Assembly (NCBI GenBank): GCA_903893675.1
Contig: CAITNA010000159.1
Span: 1 to 50,415, forward strand
Length of the DNA: 50,415 nt
DNA from: an uncultured Micrococcales bacterium
GTDB taxonomy: Bacteria > Actinomycetota > Actinomycetes > Actinomycetales > Microbacteriaceae
Direction of reading: 5' to 3'
In this document: positions 18,704 to 24,863 of the stretch, one piece after another
How the letters are laid out: every line of letters begins with the position of its first letter
How positions within the stretch are numbered: the first letter of the stretch is position 1
Made by a program: the position numbers and the translations under genes
Notes under the pieces: generated by a model
What the model was told of the DNA's origin: nothing
The model's input: only the letters and a program-made list of their open reading frames with translations
Databases searched by the model: none

Positions 18704-20785
18704 CTATGCGTCGATGCGCTCGCGCTCGAAGCTATCTGCCGAATCAATGATGAAGTCGCGACGTGGTGCGACCTCATTGCCCATCAATAGTTCGAAGACC
18801 TTGTCGGCCTGCTCGGCCTGTTCCATGCGCACGCGGCGCAGGGTGCGGTGTGAGCGGTCCATGGTGGTCTCTGCCAACTGGTCGGCATCCATCTCGCCCA
18901 AGCCCTTATAACGCTGAATAGGGTCTTTATAGCGCTTTCCGGCCTTCTCGAGTTTCACCAAAAGCTGTTCGAGCTCTTGCTGCGAGTAGGTGTAGAGCAC
19001 GTCGTTGGCCTTGGATCCAGGGTTGATGACCTCGACTCGGTGCAGTGGCGGTACGGCAGCGAACACACGACCATCTTCGATTAGCGGGCGCATGTAGCGG
19101 TAGATCAGGGTCAGCAGAAGCGTGCGGATGTGCGCACCGTCAACATCGGCATCGCTCATCAAAATGATTTTTCCGTAGCGAGCCAGGTCGAGATCGAAGC
19201 TGCGACCGCTGCCTGCACCAACCACCTGAATAATCGAGGCACACTCGGCGTTAGAAAGCATGTCTGAAACCGAGGCCTTCTGCACGTTCAAAATCTTGCC
19301 TCGAATTGGCAGCACGGCCTGGAACTCGCTGTTGCGGGCAAGCTTCACGGTGCCGAGCGCGGAGTCACCCTCGACGATAAACAGCTCGCTATCGGCTGTG
19401 TCGGTGGTGCGACAGTCAACCAACTTGGTCGGAAGCGACGATGACTCGAGCGCGTTCTTGCGACGCTGAGTCTCTTTGTGAGCGCGAGCCGAAATTCGCG
19501 ACTTCATCTCGGCGACAATTTTGTCGAACAAAATCGCGGTCTGTGCCTTGTCGTCACGCTTTGAGCTGTTGATGCGATCGGTCAACGTCTTGGTAACCAC
19601 GTTTGCCACGATGTTGCGAACGGCCGGGGTGCCGAGAACCTCTTTGGTCTGACCCTCGAATTGCGGCTCGGCAAGACGCACGGTTACAACGGTGGTGAGA
19701 CCCGCAAGGATGTCTTCTTTCTCAACCTTGTCGTTGCCAGCCTTGAGCTTGCGTGCATTCGCCTCGATGTGACCACGGATGGTCTTCAGCAGCGCCTGCT
19801 CGAAACCGGCGATGTGGCTTCCGCCTTTGGGAGTCGAGATGATGTTCACGAAGGACTTCACGACGGTGTCGTAACCACTGCCCCAGCGAACCGCGATGTC
19901 TACCTCACAGTTGCGCGAAACTTCGCGGCTGACCATGTTGCCCGATTCATCGAGAACCGGAATGGTCTCGGTGAATTCGCCAGAACCGCTGAGTCTCCAG
20001 GTGCTGGTGATTGGGTTATCGCTTGCGAGATAGTTAGCAAATTCGACGATGCCGCCGGCGAAGCGGAAATCTTGTTTGGTTGATTTGCCATCGCGCTGAT
20101 CGTCGACGGTGATGCCTAGACCTGGCACCAGGAATGCGGTCTGACGAGCACGAGCGGCCAGCTCATCGATGCTGAATTGGGCATCCTTGACGAAAATTTG
20201 CGGGTCTGTCCAATAGCGAACTCGAGTGCCGGTAACGCCCTTTGGTGCCTTGCCGATTACTCGAAGTTCGCTGGCATCTTCGAATGGCTTGAATGGGTTG
20301 CCAGGCTTGATGCCCTTTGAGTCATCGAAGTTGCCCGGCTCGCCGCGGCGGAACGACATGGCATAGGTCTTGCCGTCGCGATCGACTTCAACGTCGAGTC
20401 GCTCGCTAAGGGCGTTAACTACGGATGCACCAACACCGTGCAGACCACCTGATGCCGCGTATGAGCCACTGCCGAACTTGCCACCCGCGTGCAGCTTGGT
20501 GAAAACTACCTCGACACCGGTCAGACCGGTCTTTGGCTCGATGTCTACTGGGATGCCTCGGGCCTTGTCGCGAACCTCGACGCTGCCGTCTTTGTGCAGG
20601 GTGACGTCGATCTGGCTTCCGTGACCGGCTAGGGCTTCGTCAACTGAGTTGTCGATGATCTCCCAGACGCAGTGCATCAAACCGCGCGAATCGGTCGAGC
20701 CGATGTACATTCCAGGGCGTTTGCGAACGGCCTCTAGCCCCTCTAGAACAGAGAGATGACGGGCTGAGTACTCGCTTTTAGACAC
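18704..20785 (-). CDS. parE: DNA topoisomerase IV / gyrase subunit B family protein
   Basis: 693 aa; VRKRPGMYIGSTDSRGLMHCVWEIIDNSVDEALAG, GGLHGVGASVVNALS, IVEGDSALGTVKLARN, MSDADVDGAHIRTLLLT. Confidence 0.95.
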   Translation of the reverse strand: MSKSEYSARHLSVLEGLEAVRKRPGMYIGSTDSRGLMHCVWEIIDNSVDEALAGHGSQIDVTLHKDGSVEVRDKARGIPVDIEPKTGLTGVEVVFTKLHAGGKFGSGSYAASGGLHGVGASVVNALSERLDVEVDRDGKTYAMSFRRGEPGNFDDSKGIKPGNPFKPFEDASELRVIGKAPKGVTGTRVRYWTDPQIFVKDAQFSIDELAARARQTAFLVPGLGITVDDQRDGKSTKQDFRFAGGIVEFANYLASDNPITSTWRLSGSGEFTETIPVLDESGNMVSREVSRNCEVDIAVRWGSGYDTVVKSFVNIISTPKGGSHIAGFEQALLKTIRGHIEANARKLKAGNDKVEKEDILAGLTTVVTVRLAEPQFEGQTKEVLGTPAVRNIVANVVTKTLTDRINSSKRDDKAQTAILFDKIVAEMKSRISARAHKETQRRKNALESSSLPTKLVDCRTTDTADSELFIVEGDSALGTVKLARNSEFQAVLPIRGKILNVQKASVSDMLSNAECASIIQVVGAGSGRSFDLDLARYGKIILMSDADVDGAHIRTLLLTLIYRYMRPLIEDGRVFAAVPPLHRVEVINPGSKANDVLYTYSQQELEQLLVKLEKAGKRYKDPIQRYKGLGEMDADQLAETTMDRSHRTLRRVRMEQAEQADKVFELLMGNEVAPRRDFIIDSADSFERERIDA

Positions 20786-21159: not shown

Positions 21160-21795
21160 CTAACCCGCCGCGATTTCAGTGGCGAGCTCAATCGCTGCCT
21201 TTGACAGCGTTGCAACCTGACTAAAACGCTTGGCGTTTATTTCGCCGCGAGACTCTTTGAGCTCAGGTCGTTGAGCAACCACACTGCCCAAAATCTTGTC
21301 TGCTAGCCAGATGTTTTTTGCGAGCAACGGACCATGAAGAAGAGAACCGATCAGATTCCCTTGGATGTGCAGGTTCTCAAGAGCCAGATCGCTGTTCTTG
21401 TAGCCTGCGAGCACTTGGCCCTCAAAATCTTCAACGATGAAATTTGAGAATCGCTCATCCAAGCGCTCGATTTTGGCCGGCAGAGAACCAAAGAGCCCGT
21501 GCAGCGCGGCGAAACCACTGCTAATCGCGATCAACTGCGTGCCCTCCAGCAGCCACTGCTCCAAAGTCGCCGACACTGCTTTGAGCGCCGGATAGGCCTG
21601 ACGCCAGGCAGCAGCAGAGCCGTGCCCAATCAAGACAACATCTGGGCGAACCGAAGGCAAGTTAGCGCCAAGCGCAAGCTTCTCGAGCGAGACGGCAAGT
21701 CCACCCCACTGCGCTCTGCGCTGCAGAATGAGCAAGTTGCCGGCATCGCCATTCAGGTCTAGGTGATCCGGGTAGAGCTGCAGGAGACGAATCAT
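21160..21795 (-). CDS. GatD-like type 1 glutamine amidotransferase subunit (lipid II isoglutaminyl synthase family), nucleophile Cys replaced by Ser
   Basis: 211 aa; LYPDHLDLNGDAGNLLILQRRAQWGGL and GSLLHGPLLAKNIWLAD match GatD; nucleophile elbow is AISSGFAAL (Ser92) instead of A-x-C-G-G-Y/F-Q. Confidence 0.85.
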   Translation of the reverse strand: MIRLLQLYPDHLDLNGDAGNLLILQRRAQWGGLAVSLEKLALGANLPSVRPDVVLIGHGSAAAWRQAYPALKAVSATLEQWLLEGTQLIAISSGFAALHGLFGSLPAKIERLDERFSNFIVEDFEGQVLAGYKNSDLALENLHIQGNLIGSLLHGPLLAKNIWLADKILGSVVAQRPELKESRGEINAKRFSQVATLSKAAIELATEIAAG

Positions 21796-23054
21796 CGAGC
21801 CACCTCGTTCGGGCTAGTGAAACCTAGGTGGCGACGAAGGCGACGCATTGCATCGGCACTGAACACCACGGTGCGAATTCCCGACTTTGGCTCCGGCAAA
21901 GCCAAGAACTTATCAATCGCTGCGAACAGATCGGGCTCGACGTCATCGACCTCAATGTTGTCGTAAACCAAACGCAGGCCGAGCTCGGCGTAGTTGTAGC
22001 CGCTGATGATGTCTACGTGCTCGAGTCTCGAAAGGTCGACTGTCCACATCCAGGATGGATCGTGCACGTCTCGCCCAATGGCGATCATGAGGCGGTCAAG
22101 TGGCAATTCGAGGTTGTCGAGATTGAGTTGGAACGAGGTCGGGTTCTGCACCAAGACGAACTCCACCTGCTTGCCCTGAATCTCAACGATCTCGCCTCGT
22201 GCGAAAACCGGAGGCAGCTCGGCCATGACCTTCTCGGCGAGCTCGAGGTTGAATTCGTCGCCGAGCAATTCACGCGCGGTCGAAATTGCAGCAACAGCAT
22301 CCAAGGCATAGTGAGCACCGCGGTTTGGCAATTCGAAGATCATCTCGCGGTCGCCAAGTTTGACCATGCAGCGACGATCGTTAAGCGAAACAACTTCGGC
22401 AGAAACCCTTGGTCGAGCCATCGGCTTGAGATAAGTCGGGGCAACGCCGAGGTCATCGCCTTGAAGCACGTCTTCAGCGATTCCGAAGTAGCTCTTCTCA
22501 GGCGACTGAATTTCTGCATCGATCAACAAGATGTTCTGATCATCGGCATTCAACAAAACGCTCTGAGTTGCGCGGGCGGCAACATTTGCGAGCTTCTCGC
22601 GAACGAGAGCCGGGTCGATGAAACGGTCGAGCTGATCCTCGAGAACGTTGAGCAACGTGACCAAACGTGGGGCGACTTCTGCACTTAGGGTGTCTGCGTG
22701 AGCCTCATCGACTTCGAGAATTGCGATGTCGCCGGGAATCTTTCCGAACAGGTTGCTCTGCTCAACAATCGAAGAGAAGAATCCCTGACGAATGTTTGCT
22801 GTTGTCGGGTTGGTGAAAACCTCGAGTCCGTGTGCGCGGGCAATCGCAACAACCATCTTTGTGGTTGTCGATTTGCCGGCCGAGCCGGTAATGATGACCA
22901 GGCCCTGTGGGAACGAACCCAGGGTCTTGGCGAGCAGACCAGGCGCTAACTTGCTTAGCAGCAAGCCCGGAGCGGCAGAGCCACCACCTGGACGAAAGCG
23001 TCTTATGGCCTTTCGTGCCAAGCGACTGATCAGGATCGCAGGCAGGTAAAACAC
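21792..23054 (-). CDS. MurT-like Mur ligase family protein lacking the zinc ribbon
   Basis: 420 aa; VIITGSAGKSTTTKM, FTNPTTANIRQGFFSSIV, ILEVDEAHADTLSAEVAPRLVTLLNVLEDQLDR, LNADD, FARGE; 4-nt overlap with GatD-like gene; only one Cys in the whole protein. Confidence 0.88.
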   Translation of the reverse strand: MFYLPAILISRLARKAIRRFRPGGGSAAPGLLLSKLAPGLLAKTLGSFPQGLVIITGSAGKSTTTKMVVAIARAHGLEVFTNPTTANIRQGFFSSIVEQSNLFGKIPGDIAILEVDEAHADTLSAEVAPRLVTLLNVLEDQLDRFIDPALVREKLANVAARATQSVLLNADDQNILLIDAEIQSPEKSYFGIAEDVLQGDDLGVAPTYLKPMARPRVSAEVVSLNDRRCMVKLGDREMIFELPNRGAHYALDAVAAISTARELLGDEFNLELAEKVMAELPPVFARGEIVEIQGKQVEFVLVQNPTSFQLNLDNLELPLDRLMIAIGRDVHDPSWMWTVDLSRLEHVDIISGYNYAELGLRLVYDNIEVDDVEPDLFAAIDKFLALPEPKSGIRTVVFSADAMRRLRRHLGFTSPNEVAR

Positions 23055-23057
23055 TTT

Positions 23058-24863
23058 TTAGAGAACATCCATGAAGTCGCGCAGCAACTGAGCACGCGAT
23101 GGGTGCTGCAGCTTCTGCATGGTCTTTGATTCAATCTGGCGGATGCGCTCGCGAGTTACGCCGAGCTCTTCACCGATCTGGTCGAGAGTCTTCGCGATGC
23201 CATCGACCAAGCCGTAACGCGACTTGATGACCTTCGCTTCACGCTCGGTAAGCCCCTGGAGCAGGCGCTCGATGGCCTCGTTGCGAGCACGGGTAACCGA
23301 TGCCTCGACCGGCGAAACGGCCTCGACGTCTTCGATGAGGTCACCGAACTCGCTGTCGCCGTCTTCGCCCAGAGGGGTAGACAGCGAAATCGGTTCGCGA
23401 CCATACTTCTGAACCTCGACAACCTTTTCAGGGGTCATGTCGAGTTCGTGCGCTAGCTCTTCAGGGGTCGGTTCGCGACCGAGGTCCTGCAGAAGTTGGC
23501 GCTGAACACGCGAAAGCTTGTTGATCACTTCAACCATGTGAACCGGGATGCGGATTGTGCGAGCCTGGTCTGCCATCGCACGAGTAATCGCCTGGCGAAT
23601 CCACCAGGTTGCGTAGGTCGAGAACTTGAAGCCCTTGGTGTAGTCGAACTTCTCGACCGCGCGAATCAGACCGAGGTTTCCTTCTTGGATAAGGTCAAGG
23701 AACTGCATGCCTCGACCGGTGTAACGCTTTGCGAGCGAAACCACGAGACGAAGGTTCGCCTCGAGCAGGTGGGCCTTCGCGCGTCGACCATCCTTGACGA
23801 CCCACTTCAGGTCTTCGGTCATGGTCTTGCTAAGACGCTTGTCGGTGGCCAGCTTCTCTTCTGCGAATAGACCGGCTTCGATGCGCATTGCGAGGTCGAC
23901 CTCGAGCTCTGCGTTTAGAAGTGCAACCTTTCCGATCTGCTTCAGGTAGTCCTTAACAGAGTCGTTAGTCGCTCCTGGAATTGCGATGGTTTGAATCGCA
24001 ATGTCGTCTTCTTTGTTCTTGAAGAGCAAGACACCTTCAGGGTGCTCGTCTTCATCTTCTTCGTCGTCTTCGACAACTAGAGGAACAGCGGCAGCTGCCT
24101 CTGCGACAATCTCTTCGACCGCGAGGTCATCGCCATCGACGACTACAACTTCGTCATCTAGCTCTTCGTCGTCTTCAGGAAGATCTGAACCCTTGCCACC
24201 CTTGACTGCTTTGGCAGGCTTTGCCTTGCCGGCTGGCTTTACAGCCGGGCCGGTGCTCTTTGGAGCGTTGGCAGCAGGCTTCGCAGCCTTGGCGTCTTTT
24301 GCGGCAGGCTTCGCAGCCTTAGCAGGGGCCTTCGCCGCTGGCTTTGCAGCCTTTGCTGCCGGTTTAGCGGCTGGCTTTGCGGCAGCTTTAGCAGTCGGCT
24401 TGGCCGCTGGCTTAGCAGCGCCCTTCGCGGGCGCCTTGGCAGCAGGCTTAGCCGCGACCTTCGCGGCCGGTTTGGCGGCTGGCTTGACTGAGGTCTTAGC
24501 TGCAGGCTTTGCAGGCGTCTTGGCCGCTGGCTTTGCTGCTGGCTTGGCGGTTGCCTTAGGGGCTGGCTTAGCGGCGGCCTTGGCTACTGACTTGGCCGGA
24601 GTCTTGGCTGCAGGCTTTGCCACTGGCTTGGCCGGAGTCTTCGCAGGAGTCTTCGCCGCAGGCTTTGCCGCGGTCTTCGCGGCTGGCTTGGCGGCTGGCT
24701 TTGCTGCGGCCTTCACGGCTGGCTTAGCCGCAGGCTTTGCGACTGGCTTGGTGCTCTTCGGTGCTGAAGCTGAAATGGTCTTTCCCTTATCTGGTGCCGA
24801 CTTAGCCTTGCTTCCACCCAGGAGGCCGCTCAGGAATCCGCGCTTGTTACTCGGCTGAGCCAT
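23058..24863 (-). CDS. sigA: RNA polymerase primary sigma factor (SigA/HrdB type) with long Lys/Pro/Ala-rich N-terminal tail
   Basis: 601 aa; [88 protein letters not shown]. Confidence 0.97.
24210..24760 (-). repeat. In-gene repeat encoding (K)PAAKPAAK-type low-complexity tail of sigA
   Basis: Reiterated [15 protein letters not shown] units on the minus strand (ggctggcttag/tgcaggctt variants on plus). Confidence 0.85.

Follow-up and report, generated by a model that had tools for sequence, protein, structure and literature searches.

The locus described here raises the question of what a MurT-type ligase does when its glutaminase partner has lost the catalytic cysteine. In the window, i.e., the whole analysed stretch of 50,415 nucleotides, a murT-like and a gatD-like gene lie between a sigma factor gene and a topoisomerase gene (Table 1). 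The window comes from the same genus as Rhodoluna lacicola, and the genome of R. lacicola MWH-Ta8 (G010) carries a Cys-less pair and no other MurT.

Table 1. Coordinates of the murT/gatD-like pair, its diagnostic residues and the flanking genes in the window.
Feature	Position	Strand	Description
sigA/rpoD-type sigma factor	23058..24863	-	3 nt upstream of murT; left border of the locus
murT-like gene (variant A)	21792..23054	-	420 aa, GTG start; ATP/carboxylate site intact, no Zn ribbon
P-loop G57-S-A-G-K-S-T-T-T65 of the MurT-like protein	22860..22886	-	Lys61 corresponds to the essential Lys59 of solved MurT
E139-D140-Q141 of the MurT-like protein	22632..22640	-	Glu where canonical MurT has the Arg flanking the ammonia gate (R133 S. 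aureus / R135 S. pneumoniae)
Shortened loop G327-RDVHDPSW335 of the MurT-like protein	22050..22076	-	three DNAAD-motif residues deleted; Asp332 corresponds to D349
gatD-like gene	21160..21795	-	211 aa; 4-nt overlap with murT; pseudo-glutaminase
Ser92 of the GatD-like protein	21520..21522	-	in place of catalytic Cys94
His154 of the GatD-like protein	21334..21336	-	corresponds to triad His189; kept in the window, lost in about a third of relatives
parE/gyrB-type topoisomerase subunit	18704..20785	-	right border of the sigA-murT-gatD-parE locus

The window contains the domain set of the MurT family, Mur_ligase_M (6.7e-8 in a profile search) and MurT_C (25.4 bits against a cut-off of 25), together with an adjacent gatD. 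Solved MurT chains were matched by the MurT-like protein, and solved GatD chains were matched by its partner in two pieces. AF2 models reached pLDDT values of 92.7 (MurT) and 93.9 (GatD), and their best PDB matches were S. aureus MurT (3.5e-24) and S. aureus GatD (3.6e-12, TM 0.78), respectively. The MurT model superposed better on MurF (TM 0.69) than on MurT structures (about 0.5–0.6), which probably reflects the domain orientation of the model and is hence weak evidence. The NCBIfam equivalog cut-offs were discarded as a family test, as canonical actinobacterial pairs also fail them: the window pair scored 82.9 bits against 800, and none of the 149 genomes of the order passed.

The window pair and its relatives, referred to as variant A, share gene order, domains, fold, the ATP and carboxylate residues and D349 with the structurally characterised MurT/GatD lipid II isoglutaminyl synthases (S. 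aureus 6gs2/6h5e/7q8e, S. pneumoniae 6fqb, S. pyogenes 9sq9). The N-terminal UDP-binding domain is missing in both, the window MurT-like protein starting shortly before the middle domain. In contrast to the solved complexes, variant A lacks the GatD cysteine, the gate arginine and the zinc ribbon, has a shortened DNAAD/DGRD loop, is located between sigA and parE, and occurs in hosts with a B-type wall.

Residue conservation (S. aureus numbering) was compared between 131 MurT and 130 GatD proteins of variant A, not all of them independent because a few genomes were sampled twice, once anonymously and once under a name, and a canonical set of 112 MurT and 108 GatD proteins. Cys94 of GatD was present in none of the 130 variant-A proteins, as opposed to all 108 canonical ones. 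Its position was occupied by Gly (99), Ala (21), Ser (7) or Asn (3), while the His189 equivalent was retained in 84 of 130. A GatD that uses another nucleophile and remains a glutaminase, making the pair an ordinary amidotransferase, would suit the window itself, with Ser at the place of Cys and the histidine kept, as it is in those 84 proteins. This reading is nevertheless very improbable: Gly and Ala, the usual replacements, are incapable of acting as a nucleophile, the glutamine-capturing Arg128 is replaced by Glu in the window, and S. aureus GatD carrying C94S is inactive (PMC6113224).

On the MurT side, residues K59, N85, E108, D110, E111, D134, Q135, R138, R298 and D349 were found in 131 of 131 variant-A proteins; K59, N85, E108, D110, E111 and R298 are the ones with a known part in handling ATP and the acceptor carboxylate. 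The gate residue Arg133 (R135 in S. pneumoniae), which flanks the opening toward GatD, was present in 0/131 compared to 112/112 canonical proteins, and residues 343–345 of the DNAAD motif were deleted in every variant-A member. The gate Asp355, likewise present in all 112 canonical proteins, was found in 55 of 131 and is Thr in the window. As judged from sequence, variant A has lost its ammonia chemistry throughout the family, with the ligase half under full constraint. The joint divergence of both subunits, proposed in an earlier note on this DNA, was thus borne out, with the GatD Cys, the MurT gate Arg and the DNAAD loop all changed. The GSAGKSTTT P-loop and the remodelled GRDVHDPSW loop described there were also confirmed (ITGSAGKSTTT and AIGRDVHDPSWMWTVDLS in the window) and proved clade-wide. 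Given the recurrence of these features in 131 homologues, the P-loop, loop and ribbon features of the window pair are not due to chance.

Decay of the locus to a non-functional state might be read from the lost GatD nucleophile and from the divergence of the pair from characterised ones. It is scarcely credible, as the locus is intact in nearly all sampled carriers, the MurT active site is invariant across 51 genera, including streamlined genomes of 0.9–1.4 Mb, and both AF2 models are confident.

When considering the zinc ribbon, a different outcome was obtained. The 420-aa protein does lack the CxxC...CxxC ribbon and has a single Cys, as the earlier note had observed; in the ORF sequence, the segment after LNADD contains one Cys and no CxxC, and no CxxC pair occurs elsewhere in the protein. 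The absence of the ribbon, however, does not distinguish variant A, since 32 of the 112 canonical MurTs sampled (about 29%) lack C205. Many ribbon-less MurTs from the window's order are paired with a GatD that keeps Cys and His (e.g., L046, L048-L061, L079-L081, L083-L085). According to published work, only a subset of bacteria has the MurT zinc ribbon, and only some Actinobacteria carry its Cys tetrad (PMC6113224; PMC6085368).

In the MurT tree, variant A stood beside ribbon-less canonical pairs, so the ribbon loss is not specific to variant A and probably preceded the change in function. These nearest relatives, canonical pairs from other families of the same order (L046, L058), share the absence of the ribbon, but unlike variant A they keep the GatD Cys and His, GTNGKTTTT and NDxxADGRD, and are not beside sigA. 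By this comparison, ribbon loss is separate from the other variant-A changes, and it was rejected as the key event, since the ribbon is also missing from ordinary pairs of that order whose GatD keeps Cys. What is informative is that GatD has lost its Cys, MurT its gate Arg and the DNAAD loop three residues, with the ATP/carboxylate site and D349 kept. Of the earlier interpretation, co-divergence and the remodelling of P-loop and loop stood, and the emphasis on zinc did not.

In the MurT tree, the variant-A clade including the window comprised 51 genomes, each or nearly each from a different genus, with an SH-aLRT support of 100. All 130 variant-A pairs came from Microbacteriaceae, the window's own family. 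In a scan of a genome collection covering 84,980 species, the best 80 loci fell into about 30 genera, all of them Microbacteriaceae or MAGs among them, and the GatD Cys was absent from all 79 of these loci with a detected GatD. Other pairs examined across the phylum keep the GatD Cys, with one exception outside Microbacteriaceae, L234 (G322), where a GatD without Cys and His accompanies a MurT with the Zn ribbon. A plasmid search for named variant-A genes returned only a canonical Cys-positive pair on a Leifsonia shinshuensis plasmid (NZ_CP043642; L099, 9875-11856), beside an M15 (VanY-like) peptidase and metal-resistance genes. In one Microbacteriaceae genome of 1.4 Mb (L094, G005), murT and a dead gatD form a low-GC island (39.5%) that adjoins a type I restriction specificity-like ORF.

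Variant-A pairs were located directly behind sigA wherever the flank was readable, usually before parE, whereas canonical pairs were not. In three other Microbacteriaceae genera, the sigA-parE place was occupied by a second dead-GatD clade (L090, L091, L093), also directly behind sigA, in which MurT belongs to a different branch and has the Zn ribbon, and GatD lacks both Cys and His. By its sequences, this clade represents a separate loss of glutaminase function.

MurT was absent in 14 of 80 Microbacteriaceae genera. A CofE-like gene was found in nine of these 14, eight at the sigA-parE place and one (G044) on its own contig. In total, ten of the 80 genera carried a CofE-like gene and none of these was a variant-A genus, the two being mutually exclusive. 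CofE-like genes were often accompanied by an ATP-grasp gene and racemases, and in two cases by a DABA transaminase. At sigA-parE loci without murT (L282, L286, L287, L289-L292), CofE-like (PF01996), ATPgrasp_ST (PF14397), DABA transaminase and paired alanine-racemase genes were observed. The CofE-like/ATPgrasp_ST cluster is not homologous to variant A but shares its place and the same kind of racemase pair, and it is a second candidate for bridge synthesis.

Alanine-racemase-type genes were present within 5 kb of 16 of 51 variant-A pairs and 5 of 10 CofE genes, compared to 0 of 41 canonical pairs (p=3e-5 for variant A versus canonical). The window pair itself has no racemase next to it, and neither do the other pairs of the A1 half of the variant-A clade, to which the window belongs. 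The locus racemase is often a pair consisting of one complete and one divergent copy (L164, L175, L158, L123), possibly forming a heterodimer. The genome-wide occurrence of DABA transaminase was rejected as a marker of Dab walls: it was found in 13 of 80 genera, did not match the clades, and probably reflects ectoine genes in part. In about 14 of the 80 family genera, sigA and parE are neighbours and no ligase gene separates them; most of these cluster in the ParE tree, and nine carry only canonical Cys-positive MurT/GatD. If these genera have B-type walls, another enzyme must make the bridge there.

Microbacteriaceae are described as having B-type peptidoglycan. In walls of this type, the bridge begins on the alpha-carboxyl of D-Glu, which is also the group activated by MurT. 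A D-diamino acid is required for B2-type bridges, and the racemase genes fit this requirement. The peptidoglycan of R. lacicola is of type B2beta with diaminobutyrate, and its partial hydrolysate contained D-Ala-D-Dab and Gly-D-Glu. With wall types assigned by genus and not by strain, the published Orn/Lys-wall genera (Frigoribacterium, Frondihabitans, Salinibacterium, Microbacterium) formed one MurT subclade, and the published Dab genera (Agromyces, Clavibacter, Cryobacterium, Glaciihabitans, Rhodoluna) fell outside it. One change on the tree accounts for this correlation, which is therefore consistent with a role of the pair in the bridge without being independent evidence. In a literature search, no paper was found that names the enzyme starting the B-type cross-bridge or links MurT with Microbacteriaceae; the Pontimonas genome paper gives direct cross-links and no cross-bridge enzymology (PMC6106888).

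The reading that we prefer, with a probability of about 0.6, is that MurT together with pseudo-GatD couples the initial amino acid of the bridge to D-Glu. It draws on the loss of the glutaminase nucleophile, the altered ammonia gate, the conserved ligase site, the position and neighbours of the locus, and the distribution of the pairs, all read from sequence, and on the published B-type wall within the window's genus. On these grounds, the variant-A pair is a strong candidate for the enzyme starting B-type cross-links. MurT would bind ATP and convert the D-Glu alpha-carboxyl at stem position 2 to an acyl phosphate, like ordinary MurT. The acceptor would probably be a lipid-linked precursor, as suggested by the missing UDP-binding domain, which ordinary MurT also lacks. 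As pseudo-GatD is no longer able to free ammonia from glutamine, the nucleophile attacking the acyl phosphate would instead be the amino group of the first interpeptide bridge residue. The incoming amino acid would be D-diaminobutyrate in Rhodoluna; other genera would probably use D-Orn, D-Lys or Gly. Such chemistry, an acyl phosphate meeting the amino group of an amino acid, would resemble that of the amino-acid-adding ligases MurC-MurF. In contrast to these, variant A has no UDP-binding N-terminal domain, it would act on the alpha-carboxyl of a D-Glu already in place, and it has a GatD-like partner.

Pseudo-GatD would act as a structural or amino-acid-docking subunit, and it was probably retained because MurT stability depends on GatD. 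Most variant-A members keep many GatD pocket residues, which would be needless for a purely structural subunit; GatD may hold the amino acid.

Two other uses of an intact ligase half have to be weighed against bridge ligation. The pair could still be a D-isoglutamine synthase working on free ammonia, with MurT amidating the D-Glu alpha-carboxyl and GatD only stabilising MurT. The invariant MurT ATP/carboxylate residues and D349 agree with this, and a glutaminase-less GatD could serve, since amidation by the S. pneumoniae enzyme with added ammonia still requires GatD (PMC6085368). We nevertheless consider it quite unlikely: the gate Arg and the DNAAD loop are altered in every variant-A member, and the racemase and diaminobutyrate genes at the locus would be left unexplained. 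Moreover, as the B-type alpha-carboxyl carries the bridge, its amidation would block cross-linking.

Alternatively, the pair could act at another position of the stem peptide or on another wall polymer, the link to B-type walls being a coincidence of lineage history. Because variant A is confined to a single family, a correlation would be expected with any trait of that family, and the altered part is the DNAAD motif, which is thought to contact the stem peptide. The invariance of Asn85 and Asp110/Glu111, which hold the accepting carboxylate, and the filling of one locus by two separate dead-GatD clades and by non-homologous ligases make this unlikely.

A broader form of the bridge-ligase reading is offered tentatively, as one that is possible but doubtful. 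The sigA-parE place would be a cassette for bridge ligases that are not homologous and have been swapped for one another, either MurT/pseudo-GatD, with two separate origins, or a CofE-like enzyme plus ATP-grasp, each joining a D-diamino acid to the alpha-carboxyl of D-Glu. Where MurT does this, the incoming amino acid would be held by GatD in what was once its glutaminase pocket.

For decades, B-type peptidoglycan has served as a taxonomic marker. If bridge ligation by variant A is right, a candidate gene would be named for most Microbacteriaceae genera, the presence of a dead glutaminase partner beside a ligase under full selection would be explained, and an amidotransferase would have turned into a peptide ligase.
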